Positions 1,691 to 35,653 of a stretch of 35,670 nt of DNA are shown here, one piece after another. This DNA is from Chrysophaeum taylorii (lineage: Eukaryota; Sar; Pelagophyceae; Pelagomonadales; Pelagomonadaceae). A program made the position numbers and the translations under genes. The stretch spans positions 1-35,670 of the forward strand of contig JAQMWT010000286.1 of assembly GCA_029834535.1 (NCBI GenBank), written 5' to 3'. The notes below the pieces were generated by a model. The model saw nothing but the letters and a program-made list of their open reading frames with translations. It was not told the DNA's origin and searched no databases. Within the stretch, counting starts at the first letter, position 1. Each line of letters opens with the position of its first letter.

Positions 1691-2726
1691 CAAGTGCAGG
1701 CCAGTAAGTTCACCTAGCCCCAATCTCTAACCCCAGCATTTTCACCCCATTAAGTTCACCTAGTCCCAATCTCTAACCCCAGTAAATTCGGCGTAAGCCC
1801 ACTCGTGCTCACACCCACTCACCCCACTCTCCTTCGAGCTCGTCGCTCTCACCTCGGCCAATCTAAGCTGCTTTTATCCGCACACGCCGCTAGCCTTTGC
1901 GTTCACTCTAAAAACCCCAGTAAGTTCACTTGGTCCCAGTAAGTTCACCTGGTCACTAAGTTCACCTAGCCCCAATCTCAAACCCCAGTAAGTTCACCTG
2001 GTCCCAGTAAGTTCACCTACAGTGCGCGTGTAGACGCCGGGAGGGGGATTATCGGTATTGCGCAGCACGTGTGGGGTAGGGTGGAGTCGTCGACTCAGAA
2101 GAGGATATCCTCGGGGTTGCCGATCGACAGAGAGCCACGTAGAGCTGGACGTGGCAGAAGACGGGCTTCGCCAAGAGGACGCCGACCTCGCGGGGCGTCT
2201 GGCCCTGGCTCTTGGTGATCGTTTGGCGTCGGCGGGCCTTACGGGATACAGGTTGGAGGAGCCTCGGTGACAACGACACGATCGATCATGTATCTGGTAC
2301 CGTTGCAGTGGCCGTGCGACGGGTCGAGGTTGCGAAGACATTAAGCTCGCGATCAAAGTCAGCATGCCGTTGGTTGTCAGGGAGTTGAAAACTCTACTGT
2401 AAAGAGCGAGGCGTCGTCTTCCGACCCAGCCTAGTCAGCCGAAAAGAACTCCGACGCCTCGTCTCCGGGAAAAAAGGCCGCGGTCATGCGCGCGTTGTCA
2501 GCATCGACAACATCGTTTCGACGGGGCGTGAGAATGGCGCGCTGAAAGAGCCGCCGCGGGTCGTGGAAATAGTCTGCGAGGTCGCCGTAGACGGTTTGGA
2601 GGATCACTGTCTGGCTCTCGCGCCTACCTGATCCTTACTCTCGCGCCTAACTGATCCTTACCCTAAATCGAGGGACAAACAGACAGACAAACAGACAGAC
2701 AAACATCTGTCGATTAGTAGTTAGGA
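1691..2726 (-). mobile_element. Helitron remnant, copy A of a head-to-tail pair
   Basis: The unit begins with CAAGTGCAGGCCAGTAAG and ends near CGATTAGTAGTTAGGA, where copy B starts with the same words. From left to right it holds a block of imperfect repeats built on AGTAAGTTCACCTGGTCCC (about 1700-2020), then C-terminal pieces of a PIF1-like Helitron helicase on the minus strand (2095-2640), then a GACA/AAAC simple repeat (about 2673-2705). The Rep nuclease and the helicase N-terminus are absent, so it cannot move by itself. The Helitron assignment rests on the helicase motifs; I could not fix the 5'-TC and CTRR termini or a terminal hairpin. The repeat block would lie at the 3' end of the element as read on the minus strand. 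Confidence 0.7.
2095..2640 (-). pseudogene. Helitron/PIF1-like helicase C-terminal fragment (copy A)
   Basis: Read on the minus strand, the conserved helicase blocks come in the right order but in different frames. First is RAILTPRRNDVVDADNARM (about 2490-2546). Next is LRNLDPSHGHCNGTRYMI (about 2288-2340), matching the family's LLRNLDPxxGLCNGTR. Last is KSQGQTPREVGVLLAKPVF with QLYVALCR (about 2110-2215), matching KSQGQTLxxVGxxLxxPVFSHGQLYVALSR, helicase motif VI. The frame changes between blocks and the departures from consensus (the SHGQ position reads CHVQ, and SR reads CR) mark it as a dead copy. In the family this domain unwinds DNA during rolling-circle transposition. Confidence 0.75.
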
Positions 2727-3147
2727 CAAGTGCAGGCCAGTAAGTTCGCCAGTAAGTTCACCTGGTCCCAATCTCTAACTCCAGTAAGTTCACCTGGTCC
2801 CAGTAAGTTCACCTAGTCCCAATCTCTAACCCCAGTAAGTTCGGCGTAAGCCCACTCGTGCTCACATCCACTCACCCCACTCTCCTTCGAGCTCGTCGCT
2901 CTCACCTCCGCCAATCTAAGCTGCTTTGATCCGTACACGCCGCTAGCCTTTGCGTTCACTCTAAAAACCCCAGTAAGTTCACTTGGTCCCATTAAGCTCA
3001 CCTGGTCACTAAGTTCACCTAGTCCCAATCTCAAACTCCAGTAAGTTCACCTGGTCCCAGTAAGTTCACCTACAGTGCGCGTGTAGACGCCGGGAGGGGG
3101 ATTATCGGTATTGCGCAGCACGTGTGGGGTAGGGTGGAGTCGTCGAC

Positions 3148-25075: not shown

Positions 25076-25545
25076 CAAGTGCAGGCCAGTAAGTTCACCT
25101 AGTAACAATCTCTAACCCCAGTAAGTTCACCTGGTCCCAGTAAGTTCACGTGGTCAGTAAGTTCACCTAGTTCCAATCTCTAACCCCAGTAAGTTCGGCG
25201 TAAACCCACTCGTGCCCCTCACCCCACTTTCCTTTGAGCTCGTCGCTCTCACCCCCGCCAATCTAAGCTGCTTTGATTGGCCGAAAAGAACTCCGACGCC
25301 ACGTCTCAGGGAAAAAAATGGCCGCGGTCATGCGCGCGTTGTCTGCATCGACAACATCTTTTCGACGGGGCGTGAGAATGGCGCGCTGAAAGAGCCGCCG
25401 CGGGTCGTGGAAACAGTCTGCGAGGTCGCCGTAGACGGCGTGGAGGATCACTGTCTGGCTCGCGCACCTACCTGATCCTTGCCCTGAATCGGGGGACAAA
25501 CAGACAGACAGACAGACAGACAAACACTTGCCGATTAGTAGTAAG
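25076..25545 (-). mobile_element. Helitron remnant, copy C, internally deleted
   Basis: It starts CAAGTGCAGGCCAGTAAG like copies A and B, follows the repeat block to GCCAATCTAAGCTGCTTTGAT, then jumps to TGGCCGAAAAGAACTCCGAC. This loses the part that holds motif VI and the CNGTR block in the other copies. It ends in the GACA repeat and CCGATTAGTAGTAAG, where a Ty3 LTR begins. Confidence 0.75.
25280..25470 (-). pseudogene. Helitron helicase fragment (copy C)
   Basis: Only the RAILTPRRKDVVDADNARM block and the preceding VYGDLADCFHDPRRLFQ remain. An extra A in the A-tract near 25313 shifts the reading, as in copies A and B. Confidence 0.7.
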
Positions 25546-25869
25546 TGTGGCGGCAACTCCTGACCGCTAAGGCTTACCCTCCCTTTCTCGAGGCTTGATA
25601 CCCGTTCAACGGGACGCATTTCCCTACCTTCCTAGTGACATCATACCTCTCTCTTGTGAGAAGCATTCTTGCAGTATTCTTGTAGCGGTCTTGCTATCCT
25701 ATACCATCTCTCCGTCTTGTTGAGAGGCTTGGTGAGCGTGAGCAAGGTGTGTGGCGAGCATACCCGACCCTGAGTCCGTGTTTTCCTCGTTCAGTGAGGT
25801 CTAGGACGAGTCGGTGAGTACCCCCCTTGTCACCCGGGGGTCGGGAGTGTTTTTTTCAGTGCCGCCATA
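25546..25869 (+). repeat. Probable 5' LTR of the Ty3/gypsy element (324 bp)
   Basis: It starts TGTGGCGGCA and ends TGCCGCCATA, inverted termini with one mismatch. It is followed two bases later by TGGTGGAGGATACTC (from 25872), which could be a tRNA primer-binding site. No second LTR is seen downstream, so the call rests on these termini and the position ahead of pol. Confidence 0.55.
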
Positions 25870-25920
25870 CGTGGTGGAGGATACTCATTCCCGGCGACTT
25901 CCCTAATTCGATCTTCCATT

Positions 25921-27454
25921 GGCATGAGCAACTATTGCCGCCGATATGTGAAGAATTATTCGAAGATTGTGGAGCCGCTTGGGCGATTGTGTCTTGAAGG
26001 AGTTAAGTTTGAGTGGACGCCTGAGTGCCAAAAGGCATGGGACACGATCATCGAAGCTTTGGTGGACTCTCGCGGAGTTATCATCCTGACTACGATCTTC
26101 CTTTTCAGATCCGCTCGGATGCTTCCAAGGATGGTCTGGGCGCGTATCTTTTTCAGCTCGTGGAAGTTAAAGACGAAACCGGCAAGGTGACACGAGAGGA
26201 ACGAGTAATTGAGTATTGGAGCCGAGCTGTGCCGAAAGAGATGCGGAACTATGAGCCTCGCCGGCTAGAGCTACTGGCAGTTATTCTTTCTCTTGAGCAT
26301 TTCCGCTCTTATATCGAAGGTCACACGACGATCCTTGAAACGGATCATCGCAACTTGACGTTTTTACGAAAGGCGAAGCACTCGTCTGGGCAGTTGGCTC
26401 GATGGGCGATGCGGCTCGCCAACTTTGATCCTGAATTGCGTTACAAACCAGGGAAGTCGCCGGGAATGAGTATCCTGACTGTCTCTCTCGCAATCCTATA
26501 GATCATGTCATCTATACGGACGAGTTTGGTGAACCCTTGAACCACGCGTATCTGATGTGCCAAGAACTCCCTCGCTCTGTCGATGATGAAGGAGTACCTT
26601 TACCTGGGTGCCATGTCATTCTGTCGTTTGTTACGACTGAGTTGCCTGTGAAGAAAGAGGAAGACGACCTCGATGATCCGATGCAATTGGTCACGTCTCA
26701 TGCTACAAAACAACGTCAGAAGCAACGTCTGCAGACCCAGCATAGTATTTTCCGTGATGCCGATGATTATCAAGAATACATCGACAAGATTCCGGATAAT
26801 TTGACTTTGGAAGAGATAGCCAAAGAGCAGATCACTGATGCTACATGCGAGGACATTCGTTATCGCATGGCTCAGGGCCATTCTCTTCGTCGGTACGGAG
26901 CCAATTATCGCTATCAAGTGGTGAAAGGAGTTCTCTACCGTGCCGCACCTGACTTGCACCCGATGATAGTCGCACCCCGAACTTTACGGGCGCGCATCAT
27001 CCGATTGTACCATGACACACCTCTCAATGGTGGTCAAATGGGTCGTCAAAGTACAGAGCAGTCGATGCTTGAACGTTTTTGGTGGCCCCGCATGTCCTAT
27101 GAGGTGGGTGCTTACATTGCTGGTTGCATAGTGTGCAAGAAAGCTCGTACGCCTGAACCAAAGAGAGCAGGTCTGCTTCAGCAACCGGTGTATGATGGTG
27201 ATTGCGCCGTCCATTGTATGGATTTGTTTGGACCTTTGCCCAGTGCTGGTCCCGAGACATATCTAATCATCTTTTTTGATCCATTTTCTCATTTCTTGAT
27301 TCTTGACGTACTACACCATAAGACTGCTGAGTCAATCCTCGAGTCTTTTGTCGCGAATATATTACTCAAAGGTTATCTACATCAGAGGATTCGTACCGAC
27401 AATGTGCAGAGAAATCTGCTGCCTCTTACCCTTATCCGTCCGTTGAGAACGTGA
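25921..27454 (+). pseudogene. Ty3/gypsy pol fragment: RT end, RNase H, partial integrase
   Basis: It begins at MSNYCRRYVKNYSKIVEPL, the segment after the RT thumb. Near 26085 the frame shifts and RNase H follows: IRSDASKDGLGAYLFQ, YEPRRLELLAVILSLEHF, TDHRNLTFL. A second shift near 26465 leads into the integrase. The zinc finger reads YHDTPLNGGQMG...CIVCKK; the second His of the HHCC finger is Gln (codon 27035-27037). The catalytic core shows MDLFGPLPSAG and RIRTDN, then breaks off before the third catalytic residue. Two frameshifts, a lost ligand and both truncations make it inactive. Confidence 0.85.
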
Positions 27455-28240
27455 TCTCTTCCTTACCCTTCTTCTTCCTTTCTACACAATCAAATAGTCC
27501 TCTGATTTGTGTTTAAAAGCTCATCATCATGGTCTAGCGCGTCCCGAGGTATGTAGCACTATACACTTTACCTTCTTTCGTGTAGTTCTAGATGCCGCCT
27601 CTCGTGTTCTGAGGATATAGGGAACATACCTTTTCATTCCCCGAATTAAATACTTCCAGACGTTCATGATGAGACGGGGTGGTTTCCCAGATGACTTACC
27701 ACTGCTTGCTAAATGCTCTGCAGGTTATGGGTCCAGGCGGGTTCCTGAGAAATCATGTGTCAACATGCACGTAAACTATGGGTATTGGGCTGTTACCGCG
27801 CCGGCCCAGCCTCGCCACGTAAACACGCTTGTCAATACAACGCCATTACCATTGGGCTGTATATAACATTTTTTGCACGCGTGATCGTGTAACCTTGTGT
27901 GCACCTGTTCATAGTATCGTATTGTCATGTCAATGTTGATGTGTGTGTAATTGGCTAACCTGTACTCTTGCACACATGTTATGGAATATTTTGGGTACGT
28001 CCACTCGTACATTCCATGGCAATGCACTTAACAAGCTCCTTGAGAGCACCAAAACTAACCAGCTGCCTGAGTTACTACGCTTAGCGACACTACTCTGGAC
28101 TCACAGCTTGCACAGTCGTCAAATAGACACCTTTCCATCGAAAACGATGAGTGTACATAGACGCCGATAGACAGACCCCCTTAGAATGTCTAGACAGTGT
28201 CAACTGCGTGACTGAACCCACAGGTTCCCCGTCAACCGCT
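27455..28240. other. Spacer, possibly with the Copia 5' LTR and leader
   Basis: No gene. A TATA-like TATATAA at 27860-27866 precedes the gag start by about 380 bp and would fit a promoter in the LTR of the Copia element. LTR boundaries cannot be set because the 3' LTR lies beyond the window. The left part (27455-27750) may be Ty3 debris. Confidence 0.4.
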
Positions 28241-29554
28241 ATGGCAGAACACGCAGCACGAGCCGCACCCAAGGCGATCACAGGTGCGGATATATTGAAG
28301 CTCGAAACTCCTGTAGTTGAGTTTCTTAACGATGGAAATCGATTTCGACTTCAGACTCGCAAGGTATCCTTGCAAATCAAGCACATTAAGCAATTGTTAC
28401 GGTCCTGTCATGCCGATGCCTTCCTCGAGTACGACTCGTACGAAGCATATACTCGGTCATGCAAGGACTACGAGATCCTCCGGAATCAAATTCTCGATCG
28501 TGTTTTCCTGGAATGGAAGACCGATAGGGCTGCTGATCTCCGTTTAGCTGTTGACGAATTGCCCCCTGAGTATCAGGAATGGCATTTCACCAACGAAGCT
28601 TTTCCCAACTTACTTGATGCAGAAGTAGCTCAGCTAGCTACTGTCTGTTACGACTATGAAGTCAAGGCATTACGTCCTGAAATCAATGCCCGTTTCTTAG
28701 AAGAGGAACGAATCTTAAATCGCGCGCACCCGAAGGCATTCGCTTTCGACACCCGTGTTCGTGCCCCTGTTACTATGTTTTCGTTAACTGCTGCTGACTG
28801 GCACACTTATCAGAACACGTATGCTACATTCTTGCATACTTACTTCAATCTTGAAAGTGTTGGAAAACCAGCACTTGCGGCCTGGCCCGCCATCAATGAG
28901 GTATATAGCAAAAGTTATTTACCCAACAAGGCTCGAGCCATTATGCTCATCGCCTTTAGTCACTACGAGTCTGTTACGACTACTGATGTGTCCTACTTGA
29001 AACAGCAGTTTAACTCTGTTGTTTATAATCCTAACTGGTATGTCCATGTATTTATCGAAGCTGTCCTAGCATTTAGGCAAATCTCTTACCAACTTAACCA
29101 GGAAGAGACTGACCTTCAGTTCGACTTTGGTACTCTCTGTAGAAAAATTTATGAAGAGATACATCGGCATTATGCCGATAATACCAGCAACAATCGTTAC
29201 GATCGTGGTTGGGTAGATTGGTGTTATATTTATGAAAACCGATCTTCATCTCGGCCTGTGCCAGAAGCTGAACGATTGTGTCACCCTACCAACCCTAGCT
29301 ATATTTTAGAATACGCATTAGACTTATATAATGTAGTATCAAATGGGTCGAACAAAAGACGCTTAGAACGCCCTGTTTCTTGGCAACCCTATGTCGAAGG
29401 ATTATCCTCTCAACCAAAGCCAAAGTTACTACTTACAAACACGCTGGATTTAGCAGACAAAAGTCTGACTCAAACTGCTAACACACTCGCCTTCATTACT
29501 GCGTCTCAACCAGCCTTTCTCTCGCAGCGATTTGTCATATTATCGTTCTGGTGA
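28241..29554 (+). CDS. Gag-like protein of the Copia element
   Basis: The 437-residue product starts MAEHAARAAPKAITGADILK at the ATG at 28241. The open frame continues upstream to 28151 but without an ATG. The protein is helical, with aromatic and charged residues throughout, and holds segments such as FLEYDSYEAYTRSCKDYEIL and NQILDRVFLEWK that suit a capsid. No CCHC zinc knuckle is seen. The last 20 or so codons overlap the next frame (+1), which carries the continuation. Assignment to gag is by position and general character, not by a diagnostic motif. Confidence 0.6.
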   Translation: MAEHAARAAPKAITGADILKLETPVVEFLNDGNRFRLQTRKVSLQIKHIKQLLRSCHADAFLEYDSYEAYTRSCKDYEILRNQILDRVFLEWKTDRAADLRLAVDELPPEYQEWHFTNEAFPNLLDAEVAQLATVCYDYEVKALRPEINARFLEEERILNRAHPKAFAFDTRVRAPVTMFSLTAADWHTYQNTYATFLHTYFNLESVGKPALAAWPAINEVYSKSYLPNKARAIMLIAFSHYESVTTTDVSYLKQQFNSVVYNPNWYVHVFIEAVLAFRQISYQLNQEETDLQFDFGTLCRKIYEEIHRHYADNTSNNRYDRGWVDWCYIYENRSSSRPVPEAERLCHPTNPSYILEYALDLYNVVSNGSNKRRLERPVSWQPYVEGLSSQPKPKLLLTNTLDLADKSLTQTANTLAFITASQPAFLSQRFVILSFW

Positions 29555-30560
29555 TTCTTATGTCACCAAGAAAACTACAGGACAGTCCCATGATCGCCCA
29601 ATTTACCCCCGCACTTTTGACAGGTCCTCTCGATCTAACATGAAATTATTAGATCGAACAAATCACACGTTAAACACACTGCGAGAGCAGTGTAGCGAAC
29701 GTACGAAGCATGTGACAGATAATGATACCATGGTTCAGCTACAACTGAATATCAACAAGTTAATTGAGACTCTATTGAAATCAGCTGACATTCTGTCAAC
29801 GACATCTACTGAGGACAACAGTAACTTACTTCGTCTAAACGAACAACTCATGTTCGCAGAAGACATCATTTGTGATGTAGACGTTCATCTATCCTCGACC
29901 GAAAAGTCGTTAAACTACGTGGAGCCACAACATCATACTGTTGCTACTGCTCCCACCCCAAAGGCAACTCCTCCTACTACAGACACCAAGAATGCCCCCA
30001 ACACACAGGGAACCCTCCAATACTGTGCCTAACTTCTCTACTGCTTCCGCCATCTCGGCTTTACCACCAGCGTTACTGTCCTCGCTATCTTCACAGGTCC
30101 AATCTGCCCTCAACCAACCACCACTAGCCGAAACCAAAAGGGATGCCGATCAGACTTCGCTTTATGTCTTCAGCCAGTGCACGACCGACATCTCGCTATC
30201 CTGAGCATGCTCGAGTGGAACCAGACGAACCTGACCACTGTGTTCAATGATCGATCTGAGCCAAAGCTCAGCGCTGTCACGAGCCGCATAGACAAAGACG
30301 TACGTATTCCCATACACTACATAGCAGCGAATTTACCTGCTCTCCCTTGTCTCACCTACAACATCGCTCGCGACAAAAAACTCGAACTTCGCTCCCTCGC
30401 ATTTCCGCTCAAGCGATACCACGAAAACAGGGATCTACTGGCATATTACAATTATCTACTCACAAGAGTTTTACCAGATCGCCCGTGGATTCGTCCTTTG
30501 GTTCTCAATCTTCGGAAACAGAACAAGTTTGTCCAGCAAAACACACCGCCATTAACCTGA
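29532..30560 (+). pseudogene. Copia element: region between gag and methyltransferase, frameshifted
   Basis: Three open pieces follow each other in different frames. The first (29532-30032) starts SYYRSGDSYVTKK and is Gln/Asn/Thr-rich. The second (about 30025-30204) contains FSTASAISALPPALLSSL. The third (30177-30560) contains EWNQTNLTTVFNDRSEPKL and FPLKRYHENRDLLAYYNYLL, and ends at a TGA whose next codon is the ATG at 30561. Copia elements usually carry an aspartic protease here, but I see no D(S/T)G motif, so protease is either absent, diverged or lost. Confidence 0.5.
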
Positions 30561-32130
30561 ATGCTATCGCGCCCAGTGTTTCTCTCACAAGAGCCCAATC
30601 TTCGCAAACCCTCTGTCATGTTACTTTGTTCTGGTTTGTCAACTCCAGCGTTCCTGTCTCAAGCCACTAATGACTTAGGCTTAAATATCAATGTAAAAGT
30701 TGTTGTTGAGTCTGATGATACGCTTGTTCGTATGTTACGCCACGGTTTCCCTACAGTATTATTATTTGAATCTCTCCCCGCCTTTATTAACCATCTTCAC
30801 CTAATTTCACCAGAGGAAAGGCGCAAATTCTATTGTGATATAATTGAGATTACTCCTCCCTGCACGAACAGGAATCTACTAAAGCAGCATAAGACCGAAG
30901 ACTTACACAGCCTGCTGGACGATTCTCTTTTCGACAGCATGCTGTCTGTCATCAAGCTACTCCAGCCCTTGGTACTACTGGCTGAGATGACGCCTCCGCA
31001 CAAGTACTGTCATCAAGACCACATAACTGTGGCCAATCTCATCCATACTACACTCGATTACTGTGTCGATGTTGTTGATAGGTTCCCGACCTACCTCTGT
31101 GGCGACTACCAATCTAGAGAAAGATGGATATGCATCGCACGCAGGTTCTGTTCAGCTTACTATGGCTGACCTTGAATCACTCAATATGTTACTGCTTCGC
31201 CTTCACTCACAACAGGCTCACGAGCAACGTACTCACTCTGTTCAATCCGAGTGTACTTATCATCAGCTGTGCTTTAAACGCTCCTCCATGGAGCCGCTAC
31301 CTCATGCAACCTATTCTATACACGTCAAGGTTTTTACAATCCTCTATAACTTGTTTGCCAGATTACACACTAACTCACCCACTCCTGTGTCCTATTACAT
31401 AACCGTTTTCGAAACTGACCAACCGTCACACAGGTTACTACTTACAACCTCATCAACATCACACAACTCCCACTTCTTAACTGGTGGCCACCACTCTGAC
31501 GGCAACCTCACCATAGAGAACGCCACCACCAAATATCATGCTTCCATTGACGCGTTTGGAAGCACGTATACGTTCACTGCTTCCGACACCCCCCCCCCGA
31601 CCGGGACAGGTCCATATATTTGGAGCCGTTTATGGGTGTGGATAGTTCAAGCCCTTCCTCAAGTTGGCTCCGCTGCCACCCATGGCACCACCATACAAAA
31701 GCTCTTGTCCAGATGCTCTCTTGTGATGCCTGGCTGCCTTACCTACAAGGCCACCGACAACTCTTTCGACTACAAGGACTCTCATTTTGCTCTGGAAGAT
31801 CACCACTTATCTCATAGTCGCTATATAGGGTACCTTCGTGGAAGTGACCGCAAACTCGGCTCTAAAATCCACTCAATGCCTGCTCCATTGCCAACCGTCC
31901 GAGGGTATGCCAATATTATTTTACTTGACCCTCGCAACGGAAAATTACGCTACCCCTCTCGACCGGAGTTGATTTGTGCTAACAACCACACCAAACAACA
32001 GGAATCCTTCCGATTGTCTCTACGTTATGATCTTTGCTGTGATATGCTCAGCAATGCTCTGCCTGCCGGTACGTACAGCACTCTGTACAAGCACCTTTCG
32101 CTCCTCGTTGCCGATATTAAATCCCTTATG
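30561..32130 (+). pseudogene. C5-cytosine DNA methyltransferase-like domain inside the Copia element
   Basis: The family methylates cytosine in DNA using S-adenosylmethionine. In the frame from 30561 the motifs appear in order. Motif I: VMLLCSGLSTPAFLSQ (SAM site), then VVVESDD for the acidic strand end. Motif IV: CDIIEITPPC, with the catalytic Cys at codon 30861-30863. A motif VI-like segment: PLVLLAEMTPP. Motif VIII: GDYQSRERWICIAR. A frameshift near 31140 moves on to the second frame, where a 250-residue variable target-recognition stretch leads to PTVRG, LLDPRNGKLRYPSRPEL (motif IX side) and MLSNALPAGTYSTLYKHL, matching motif X (GNAVPP). Motif IV lacks the usual Gln after PC, and motif VI reads AEM where ENV is usual. 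Placement between gag and integrase is conserved within the element. Confidence 0.75.
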
Positions 32131-32459
32131 TTGGACCCTACCTTTCAACATACTGCTGCAGTGACTAAGAAATCCTATGTTTCCAATTTCATGACCATTA
32201 ATCAAGCTTCCACCACGTGCAGCACAGATACCTTGTCTTTAGCACAAGCTTTTATGATGTCTATTTCCAGCAACTGCTTGACCGAAATGTCGTTAAACTA
32301 TATATCTTCGTCCTACGAAGATACTCTCGTTACTCGTGATGATGAGGATGCACCTCCAAGTGACCCTGCTGCGCACCAGGATGACGATACACCGCCTTCC
32401 CCTGCCTTAGACACCGAACTCAAGTTCGATTTTCGGCGCAAACGGCACATTCCCGCTCA

Positions 32460-33365
32460 TCCTATTCCTCGCAAGTCCTTCGCACACGGATCTACCGAAT
32501 ATCTCAACGCCAAAGAACGTGCCAGTCGCTTCCACCGGGTGCACCACTGCCCCGACAACGTCGCTGCCAAGGCCCCCAACGTACTGGCTCGCCCTGGATT
32601 CTCTGCCTCTGACATACCGTATCGCGACTTATGCACCGACTGCATCGCACACAACAATCGCCACCCGCACAAGCACTTCAATGCGACCAAGCCCTCTTTT
32701 GAGCAAACTCACAAAGCCGGCGAAGTCTGGGCGTGCGACGGCGGCTATGTGACCATCCCATCCGAATGGGGAGGCTTCACACATATCATCGTCTTCAAGG
32801 AACTCATTTCGAAATTCCTCTTGGTGTACTTTACACGCACCACCAACGCCACGGAGTTCACTCAAGCTCTGGATTTTGTGTATGACTTTTGTCGTACACA
32901 ACTCAACGTGCACATGCGCACCCTCTACTCCGATGCCTTCAAGCCCTACTTTAGCCAGCACATTACCTCCCCGTACCGCGTCGATAAGGGCATTCAGCTC
33001 ATCGCTTTCCCGCCGTACATGCACCACTTTAACTTTGAAGTTGAGTCCGCCATCGGTTTCATCGCCTCCGCCTCCTCAACTCGCCTTCGTTCTCTCCTTA
33101 ATGCTCACTATCGTGGCTCCAAGATCGTGGAACCAGCCATCATGTTTCCTGGGCGGTGATACACACCGTCCAAAGCTACAACCTTCTCCCGAACGCCACG
33201 CTCGAGCGCATTCACCATGCTATCCTGAGTCCGCAACAGCTACTCTACAACCAACTCAACACTCCCCAACATGACATGCTCAAGATCTTCGGCGCTGAAT
33301 GCTACCTTCTATTGGAGCCCCACGAACACCACAAGTGGGAACCGTGCCGCCGCAAATACTTATAG
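32460..33365 (+). pseudogene. Copia integrase
   Basis: A zinc-binding segment has FHRVHHC followed by the CTDC pair (32632-32643), the HHCC finger. The catalytic core has GEVWACDGGYVTI (Asp codon 32737-32739), RTLYSDAFKPYF (second Asp) and PPYMHHFNFEVESAIGF, where Glu at the ESA position is the likely third residue, 36 residues after the second Asp. The frame then stops at 33159. The adjacent frame continues with a typical Copia integrase tail (LLPNATLERIHHAIL, LKIFGAECYLLLEPHEHH) up to the stop at 33363. The integrase joins the cDNA to host DNA. Confidence 0.85.
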
Positions 33366-34043: not shown

Positions 34044-35653
34044 CTCGTCTTCTTCTCCCGTTGCGCACTGACTTACTTGCCCGCTACCCGCACGTCGATG
34101 GTTACTTCGCCCACGCCAAGTGCGCATCCAGCATCCCAGCTGCAACCTTTCTAACTGCTGATGGTTCACCTACGTGCCCCATTCCTCAGCCCCTTTTATC
34201 TGCGTTCACTGAGCACGCTGCTGCCTTTGGCACTTCTTCCTTACAATATGCACTTACGTACCTGGCGCCGACCAGCTTTATTGATCACAACTCCTCCGAG
34301 TTTGGCGCTAATTCTGCATCTCTGGCTGACTTGGAGGAATACCTTCTGGTCTCTACAGAGTATATCACCCAGGTCTTACATACCGACCCTACTATCCATA
34401 TTCAACTGGAATCTGCTTCTCCTACTCCTACTGACGCTGTTTCCGCTTATTCCGAAGTTGCGCACACTGCCTCGACCGCAACGTCGTTAAACTATCATTC
34501 ACCAGCCACTGTTGGTCCTGACGAATATAAGGTCCAAGAAGCGGACGTTTCCATTGACGAATATAAACTCAAGTGCCTCCACGGTATGTCGCCTGAAAAC
34601 AGGCACGCCTACCTCAAGGCCATCGCCAAGGAACTCCACGACATTATCCGCTTTGGCTGCTTCAAACTTTCCTTACCCGACGGTGTCTCTCGTCCTATTG
34701 ACAGCAGGATGGTGCTGAAGATTAAAACAGACTCTGCAGGCAAATACGTTAAGCACAAGGCTCGCCTCGTGCTACGTGGCTTCCTAGCATCTCTTGGCGC
34801 CGATTTCTTTGGCACCTTCAGCCCCATGGCCACAATGACCGCAATCCGGGTACTACTGGCTATTGCAGCATACAAGCAATTGCCTGTCTACCATGCAGAC
34901 GTCCCGAACGCCTTCGTTCAGTCTGACATTGATGCCAACGTCTATGTTCAGTTACCAGACGGCATCAAGCTTATCGACCCCGATGACGCTAAGTACAAGG
35001 GCCGACGCCTACCGAAACTGCTGAAGTCACTTTATGGACTTCGGCAATCACCATCTCTTTGGAACAAAGAGATAGACGGCTCCTTCCGCTACAAGCGCCT
35101 GCATCCGGACTCTTGCCTATATGCTCGAGTATCCGCACATGCCAAGTTCGTCGTATGTAGTCTGTCTGTAGACGACATTGTTATTGTATCCAATGACGAC
35201 CCTCTTCGTACTGAGTTACAGGATGCCCTTCACAAACGGTATGCTGTAGAGCACTTTGAACCTGTCCATACCCTTCTAGGTATGCGTGTGTGTCGTACAT
35301 CTGATGGATCCATTTCTCTGGATGTGCAAGCCAAGCTGGATGAACTCTTCGCTGATCACCCTGTCTTGCAGCAACTGACCCCGCTCAAATATCCTATGTC
35401 ATCGTCCTTCAAGTATAAAGATGACACTCCCAGCTCTGAAACAGAGTTGTACATCAATTCGCACTTTGCCACCCTCCTTGGCAAGCTGGTGTTCATGCAA
35501 GTGGCCTGCAGACCTGACTTCTCGCAGGCCTTGGGCAGATGTTCGCGTGGTATGCATGCACCTACGTATGTTCACGTCCAAATGCTAGAGCATTTGCTTC
35601 GCTACCTCAAGAAGCCGGAAAACCGCTCACTTCGCCTCCTGGCAATAATGTAA
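34037..35653 (+). pseudogene. Copia reverse transcriptase (RVT_2), C-terminus disrupted
   Basis: After about 190 residues of linker, the RT domain starts near NRHAYLKAIAKELHDIIRFG. It contains PIDSRMVLKIKTD, KHKARLVLRGF, TFSPMATMTAIRVLLAIAA, YHADVPNAFVQSDIDANVYV, the PKLLKSLYGLRQSPSLWN block and the catalytic SLSVDDIVIVS (usually YVDD). It ends FMQVACRPDFSQALGRCS, HAPTYVHVQMLEHLLRYLKK and then a stop at 35653, where RNase H would be expected to continue; a frameshift or stop at the edge is likely. It makes cDNA from the element's RNA. Confidence 0.88.

Follow-up and report, generated by a model that had tools for sequence, protein, structure and literature searches.

Among the retrotransposons described as carrying a DNA methyltransferase (DNMT), the available text of de Mendoza et al. 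(2018, PMC5890265) covers dinoflagellate LINE and DIRS elements as well as a Gypsy element of one charophyte. SymbioDIRS-Dnmt3 and SymbioLINE-Dnmt of Symbiodinium are described there as retrotransposons of high copy number whose coding region includes a DNMT domain under purifying selection, and the two SymbioDIRS-Dnmt3 domains that were tested methylate CG de novo in yeast, while Copia elements of Symbiodinium are presented without any DNMT domain. High copy number, a DNMT-type domain in the coding region and purifying selection are common to those elements and to families W and B of this study, but the Symbiodinium carriers are DIRS and LINE elements, with DNMT3 domains in SymbioDIRS, whereas the carrier here is a Copia element. 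KnitGypsy-Dnmt3 of Klebsormidium nitens, which according to the same text is less numerous than the Symbiodinium elements, is like ours an LTR retrotransposon with the DNMT inside its Pol polyprotein, but it is a Gypsy element and its domain is a DNMT3. The Ectocarpus Sola1 ParB-methyltransferase (PMC12477816, available passages) is likewise a transposon-borne DNA methyltransferase in an alga, but the carrier is a DNA transposon and the enzyme is predicted to make N4mC or N6mA and not C5-methylcytosine.

The sole printed mention of Copia that we found in the literature searched is in PMC12344493, where the passage at hand places some DNMT3 members in 'LTR Copia and DIRS' elements and cites the 2018 paper; we read this as a slip, since the carriers described in the cited paper are LINE, DIRS and Gypsy elements. 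That literature, whose coverage leaves out bioRxiv and most subscription journals, yielded no clear case of a C5-methyltransferase in a Copia element, nor is there one in the available portions of PMC9998398, PMC11244446, PMC4522978 and PMC12210899. As far as the searched literature goes, Copia is a new superfamily for DNMT-bearing retrotransposons.

The window, meaning the whole stretch of DNA that was analysed, is the entire contig C286 (35,670 bp) of a 70.8-Mb assembly with 697 contigs and eukaryotic content. Its final 8.3 kb hold a degenerate Copia LTR retrotransposon of which only the 5' part is present: it begins at 27405 and is cut off where contig and window end. The 3' LTR would fall past that end, and the window copy keeps only the 5' LTR and the primer-binding site (PBS). 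We refer to the window's own Copia family as W and use as its reference copy L062 (contig C42), in which both LTRs are present (92.7% identity over 317 bp) and from which the LTR boundaries were defined. The element and its immediate surroundings are made up as follows.

25798..27404, forward strand: fragment of a Gypsy-like element, outside the Copia element (Integrase_H2C2, 2.9e-14; presumed class)
27405..27722, forward strand: 5' LTR of 318 bp, TG...CA, matching both LTRs of L062 with the same boundaries
27723..27737, forward strand: primer-binding site GGTTATGGGTCCAGG, one change from the complement of the presumed initiator tRNA-Met anticodon stem-loop
28151..29554, forward strand: gag-like ORF of 467 aa, assigned by position
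29469..30560, forward strand: second gag/protease-region ORFs in two frames (29469-30032 and 30033-30560), a single 504-aa frame in L062
32533..32643, forward strand: HHCC zinc-binding motif of the integrase, read from the translation
32710..32958, forward strand: integrase core, rve (PF00665, E=0.0027, 18.4 bits, under the curated cut-off of 32.6)
34673..35329, forward strand: Copia-type reverse transcriptase, RVT_2 (PF07727, E=5.6e-39)

The Copia element is inserted into the integrase ORF of the Gypsy-like fragment, within which the LTR start at 27405 falls. The PBS that directly follows the LTR of L062 is perfectly complementary to CTGGGCCCATAACC, part of the 17-mer CTGGGCCCATAACCCAG, which occurs seven times in the genome and can be read as the initiator tRNA-Met anticodon stem-loop; the seven sites are presumably tRNA genes. 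Half-tRNA priming of a similar kind is known from Drosophila copia. L062 also has a G-rich purine run ahead of its 3' LTR, and the flanks of this one copy, checked for a target-site duplication, read GATAA and GATAG and agree in 4 of 5 bases. The gag-like ORF has no Pfam match, and an aspartic protease motif, present as DGGAS in family B, was looked for in family W and not found. Integrase lies before reverse transcriptase in the polyprotein, which is the Copia order: L062 has its HHCC motif at 725, rve at 784-866 (below the cut-off) and RVT_2 at 1431-1651 in one frame, and PF07727 also matches L062 (7.7e-42) and family B (1.6e-38). The element is a Ty1/copia-type LTR retrotransposon. Elsewhere in the window, a short unit around CCAGTAAGTTCACCTGGTC is interspersed at 1700-3075 and 25085-25223 (a 71-nt family of 10 members).

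Between gag and integrase, the element codes for the C5-cytosine methyltransferase motifs I, IV, VI-like, VIII, IX and X, in that order, by the textbook definitions of these motifs. In the features below, residues were counted over 38 aligned rows, which are 37 distinct copies (L062 stands twice) taken as the best-scoring matches plus chosen divergent ones.

30561..31157, forward strand: C5-methyltransferase-like domain, motifs I to VIII (ORF frame 30561-31169), from motif order, row conservation and alignment to family B
30615..30653, forward strand: motif I-like VMLLCSGLSTPAF; S-G-L-S-T-P-A-F each kept in 37 or 38 of 38 rows
30855..30863, forward strand: motif IV TPPC/PPC with the candidate catalytic Cys at 30861-30863; Cys in 38 of 38 rows, pairing with the corresponding Cys (motif IV) in family B
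30981..30989, forward strand: motif VI-like AEM; Glu in 37 of 38 rows, pairing with the Glu of family B VENV
31110..31124, forward strand: motif VIII QSRER; Q, R and R each in 38 of 38 rows
31135..32280, forward strand: C-terminal part, a variable stretch like a target-recognition domain (TRD) and then motifs IX and X, in another frame (31027-33159) than motifs I to VIII
31945..31971, forward strand: motif IX-like LRYPSRPEL; counterpart RHYSTRELA in family C
32050..32064, forward strand: motif X SNALP; counterparts ANAIP in family C and ANAVP in family B

The initial annotation had reported motifs I, IV, VI-like, VIII and X between gag and integrase in canonical order, and they lie where it placed them, with the putative catalytic residues kept in 37 or 38 of the 38 rows; such row counts are not counts of independent events, because the copies were best-scoring or chosen and because L062, like several family B places, entered twice. 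The window copy itself is broken by frameshifts, and relative to L062 about 58 codons (about 174 nt) are missing just past motif VIII, near 31158. Its motif VI does not keep the canonical ENV (the Asn is absent) and its motif I is without the usual glycine pattern. AlphaFold2, run on the single sequence of the window copy, gave a mean pLDDT of 39.

A match to the cytosine methyltransferase profile PF00145 was among the checks that the initial annotation proposed, and the outcome differs between families. PF00145 matches neither the window copy nor any of five long W copies, and none of its 57 matches in the genome (123 of 474 candidates scored) lies in W; 55 of the 57 overlap a sister Copia family, B, which exceeds the curated cut-off (1.1e-7, 32.1 bits against 22) and has PF00145, rve and RVT_2 in a single 1952-aa frame, with the methyltransferase domain in the same slot as in W. 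Family B gave 152 matches from 150 scored candidates (576 at first look), and its motifs read AGGLHQEGF, LPCQHLS, VENVPP, ISKTR and ANAVP. Motif IV of DNMT3 is PCN, whereas that of family B is PCQ. Compared with profiles of solved structures, family B has two weak matches, to an uncharacterised protein (0.044, via its tag) and to a cytosine methyltransferase (0.058). The domain of family B is almost certainly homologous to C5-methyltransferases.

A third family, C, was picked for its different RVT_2 match range (11-230 as against 8-220) and is represented by the single locus L087 (G000:C483:22100-24300), about 4.5 to 2.3 kb upstream of its RVT_2 match. There the domain is present from just before motif IV onward and continues into integrase, the RVT_2 match following 2.3 kb further on, with the motifs SPCTNRN, MEMTPP, QARER, TIRG...STRELARANNF and ANAIP and 44-50% identity to W across two aligned stretches. 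Pfam, PF00145 included, and PHROGs do not recognise the family C domain. Motifs IX (STRELARANNF) and X (ANAIP) of L087 look canonical despite the Pfam miss. Since families B and C have the domain too, it is no private accident of one copy, and it is old enough within this genome for three or more Copia families to have diverged with it.

To what extent W is related to the family B domain can be judged from profile alignments, which disagree according to their mode. The local W-B alignment scores 43.3 against a shuffle maximum of 33.1 (0/800 as high; Gumbel p 2.4e-5), and with shuffles of 6-column blocks 0/300 are as high (p 2.8e-6); it pairs W C101, E142, R186 and R188 with B C92, E132, K174 and R176, unprompted. 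The part with motifs IX and X, aligned locally, gives p 0.005 (1/500 shuffles as high). Scored by itself with the B profile, the window ORF reaches 37.6, where the best of 52 decoys reaches 31.7. Among PHROGs, the L062 domain matches a single entry up to E 10, a DNA methyltransferase (0.06), over roughly the profile positions that B matches. On the negative side, none of the Pfam models, NCBIfam models and PDB chain profiles recognises the W domain, hhalign of W against B returns E 0.02-0.03 at a probability of about 2% (E 0.83 in global mode), and with HMMER 1/2000 shuffles score above W while the reverse search leaves B no higher than its shuffles. Aligned end to end, shuffles reach the W-B score in 133/150 cases for the whole domain, 95/150 for the C-terminal part and 7/300 for the N-terminal part; the TRDs of W and B do not align (18/300 as high). 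The W profile scores the DNMT5 and DNMT2 genes of the host at 38.9 and 31.3, the best of 52 decoys reaching 39.8. When family C is added, the local W-B score falls to 34.5 (0/1000; p 9.6e-4) and the path through IX and X ends ahead of motif X (6/1000 as high).

These mixed scores bear on the reading that there is no homology at all and that the motifs are chance matches within an unrelated linker domain of Copia. The failure of database profiles to recognise W, the weak hhalign result and an end-to-end W-B alignment equal to shuffles would all fit it. The unprompted pairing of the catalytic columns, the order and spacing of the motifs, the contrast in conservation between core and TRD, and the position of W in the slot that holds a PF00145-positive domain in family B speak against it, and we consider it highly unlikely. 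The W domain of the window is very probably homologous to C5-METHYLTRANSFERASE, as judged from these sequence comparisons. The claim of the initial annotation that a Copia element carries a C5-methyltransferase-type domain is supported outright for family B and, for W, by way of residues, conservation and position, while general profile searches of W are marginal or negative; made from the sequence alone, the annotation is essentially right.

As to the source of the domain, scans of viral contigs with the two domain alignments produced 154 and 97 pattern matches, of which none was confirmed, and a phage search with family B produced 18 records (best 5e-6) and no clear donor. The initial annotation had foreseen an independent capture or a lineage wider than thought; the latter fits the searched literature, in which LINE, DIRS and Gypsy are the only clear carriers, and the former may hold as well.

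Copies of W are abundant. With the N-terminal piece (a 202-aa query), all 150 scored places match (915 candidates at first look), with identities of 78-100% among those listed, the window included, and with the C-terminal piece of L062 all 150 scored places match as well (863 candidates), so that W occupies at least 150 places in the 70.8-Mb genome, of which some, for example those on C10 and C297, may be allelic duplicates in the assembly. Of the 150 N-terminal matches, 90 have a C-terminal match 1.0-2.1 kb downstream. On the same strand, 45 of the 150 have one of the best 150 RVT_2 matches 3.2-6.3 kb downstream, clustered at 4.2-4.3 kb, and the controls on the opposite strand and on the upstream side, with the same 150 RVT_2 matches, give 0 and 0. 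Seen from the reverse transcriptase, a W part lies upstream of 69 of the best 150 RVT_2 matches, and the one examined among the other 81 is family C. In 31 W copies compared, the closest pair has 99.0% identity over 1.9 kb and the median pair 93.6%. In L062, the complete domain, integrase and reverse transcriptase share one 1691-aa frame. Copy number, conservation and the aligned catalytic residues led us to reject chance or a frame artefact, notwithstanding the negative profile tests.

Conservation is uneven along the domain. Against the divergent relatives L079-L081, W has 78-79% identity in the core from I to VIII and 44-54% in the TRD (3/3), and 78-79% again over IX and X in 2/3, L079 being disrupted there (41%). 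Against family C, the values are 56% for I to VIII, 54% for IX and X and 39-44% for the post-VIII stretch and TRD, and the core (54-56%) is as well conserved as the start of integrase (53% over its first 98 aa). Between W and L079-L081, dS is saturated in the core, where dN is 0.12-0.16. For L080/L081, dN/dS is 0.08 (core) and 0.18 (TRD), and for L080/L079 0.12 and 0.44; in the core of family B it is 0.08-0.28 where defined, some of the partners being decayed. Both halves of the core are more conserved than the target-recognition stretch, which is the pattern expected of a working C5-methyltransferase.

The same data can be set against the idea of a retired methyltransferase, which would have kept the fold and some motifs, lost catalysis and taken on a structural or nucleic-acid-binding role in the particle or in integrase targeting. 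W escapes PF00145, its motifs I and VI are altered, and family B has ISKTR in place of QxRxR, as such a history would have it, but the Cys (38/38 rows), the Glu (37/38) and the Arg pair of motif VIII (38/38) are retained in W, and the catalytic residues are retained in family C too, where only about half of the residues are common with W. We regard retirement as unlikely, because mere binding needs no nucleophile and yet the Cys is kept.

The sequences show the class of the element, where the domain sits, its conserved motifs, constraint on the core across divergent subfamilies and, in family B, a second Copia family of the same layout; in family C, the domain precedes integrase at one locus. 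Our preferred reading, somewhat better than even, is that this decayed copy stands for an abundant Ty1/copia element in which a C5-methyltransferase-type domain, encoded after gag/protease and before integrase, would act on the element's own cDNA. By its position in Pol, the domain would be translated within Gag-Pol, alongside integrase and reverse transcriptase. The element's protease would probably release it, at repeated TxxSLNY linkers that stand at the methyltransferase/integrase and integrase/RT boundaries, and it would then be packaged with reverse transcriptase in the virus-like particle. There it could methylate fresh element cDNA ahead of integration, a substrate like that proposed for SymbioDIRS in the accessible text of PMC5890265, so that new copies would reach the genome pre-marked, and a DNMT5-like enzyme of the host could maintain the mark, which might keep the cDNA from being sensed as foreign or hold the element and its damage in check. 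For this sequence of release, packaging and methylation before integration, we see the chances as evenly balanced.

The linkers are marked in the DNA by a repeat, found in a repeat scan of the window at three places.

29897..29917, forward strand: copy of GACCGNAANGTCGTTAAACTA in the second gag-region ORF
32280..32300, forward strand: 21-nt repeat GACCGNAANGTCGTTAAACTA, coding for TEMSLNY, at the methyltransferase/integrase boundary
34474..34494, forward strand: copy of GACCGNAANGTCGTTAAACTA before the reverse transcriptase

Other copies of the repeat are at 2342, 5324, 7496 and 9404 on the reverse strand of L062, at 551 on the reverse strand of L084 and at 2893, 6019 and 8193 of L063, and it was not found in the scanned loci of families B and C (L061 and L087). 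SLNY occurs three times in the 2596 aa of L062, and 0/5000 shuffles have as many. The TxxSLNY sites may be protease sites that free the methyltransferase; a site of HIV protease is SQNY/P. The repeat is mostly in frame as TxxSLNY, and it also occurs in the 3' region of W and close to the end of RNase H. At the DNA level, its conservation (a CGAC/GTCG inverted pair) seems to go beyond the needs of the peptide.

The substrate may also have been RNA, with the domain a cytosine methyltransferase of the element's RNA or of its tRNA primer. The PBS is complementary to the presumed tRNAiMet anticodon stem-loop, the primer fragment apparently ending in the anticodon stem, and DNMT2 modifies, in other tRNAs, the loop adjoining that stem. 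RNA methylation is itself proposed for the SymbioLINE DNMT in the available text of PMC5890265. We nonetheless think an RNA target quite improbable, given that motifs VIII and IX are separated by a long, variable, TRD-like stretch, which differs between families and resembles DNA sequence recognition, and that no DNMT2-specific feature was seen in the domain.

If the domain methylates DNA at CpG, a trace might be sought in the mutation spectrum of the copies, and no clear methylation scar was found there in W or B, CpG not decaying clearly faster than other C sites; the spectrum is compatible both with heritable CpG methylation and with its absence. Over all aligned positions, C/T differences at CpG are below those at other C sites (0.050 vs 0.090 in W; 0.095 vs 0.132 in B, where several places were fetched and thus counted twice). 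At silent third positions, W has 0.167 for CG vs 0.141-0.154 and 0.231 for G/A at NCG vs 0.057-0.162, and B, with the same double counting, 0.240 for CG vs 0.111-0.257 and 0.156 for NCG vs 0.078-0.271. For CpG, the observed/expected ratio is 0.93 in the window element and 1.05 in the Gypsy-like fragment; three host stretches have 1.32-1.42.

The two PF00145 matches outside family B are host genes, one DNMT2-like (G000:C634, L001; PDB 1g55 DNMT2, 3.9e-39) and one DNMT5-like (G000:C621, L002; PDB chain 7r76 'Rad8', which we take to be DNMT5, 3e-143). DNMT5 of Cryptococcus, in the portion of PMC9246332 available, maintains methylation and does not initiate it. One could then imagine that the Copia-borne domains, hundreds of them in at least three families with differing recognition stretches, alone supply the genome with new DNA methylation, the elements writing and the host copying. 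The basis for a sole source is that these two genes are the only non-element PF00145 matches (2/57, with 123/474 candidates scored and introns ignored), and we hold this extension to be rather doubtful.

DNMT-bearing retrotransposons are a paradox, in that they carry the tool commonly used for silencing them. The presence of the domain in the same slot of divergent Copia families would mean, if true, that it was captured in yet another class of element and has lasted for long. W is too diverged for PF00145, and similar domains may therefore escape standard annotation elsewhere. Because this genome is compact (71 Mb) and has a DNMT5-like gene, the question of who initiates methylation is directly testable.
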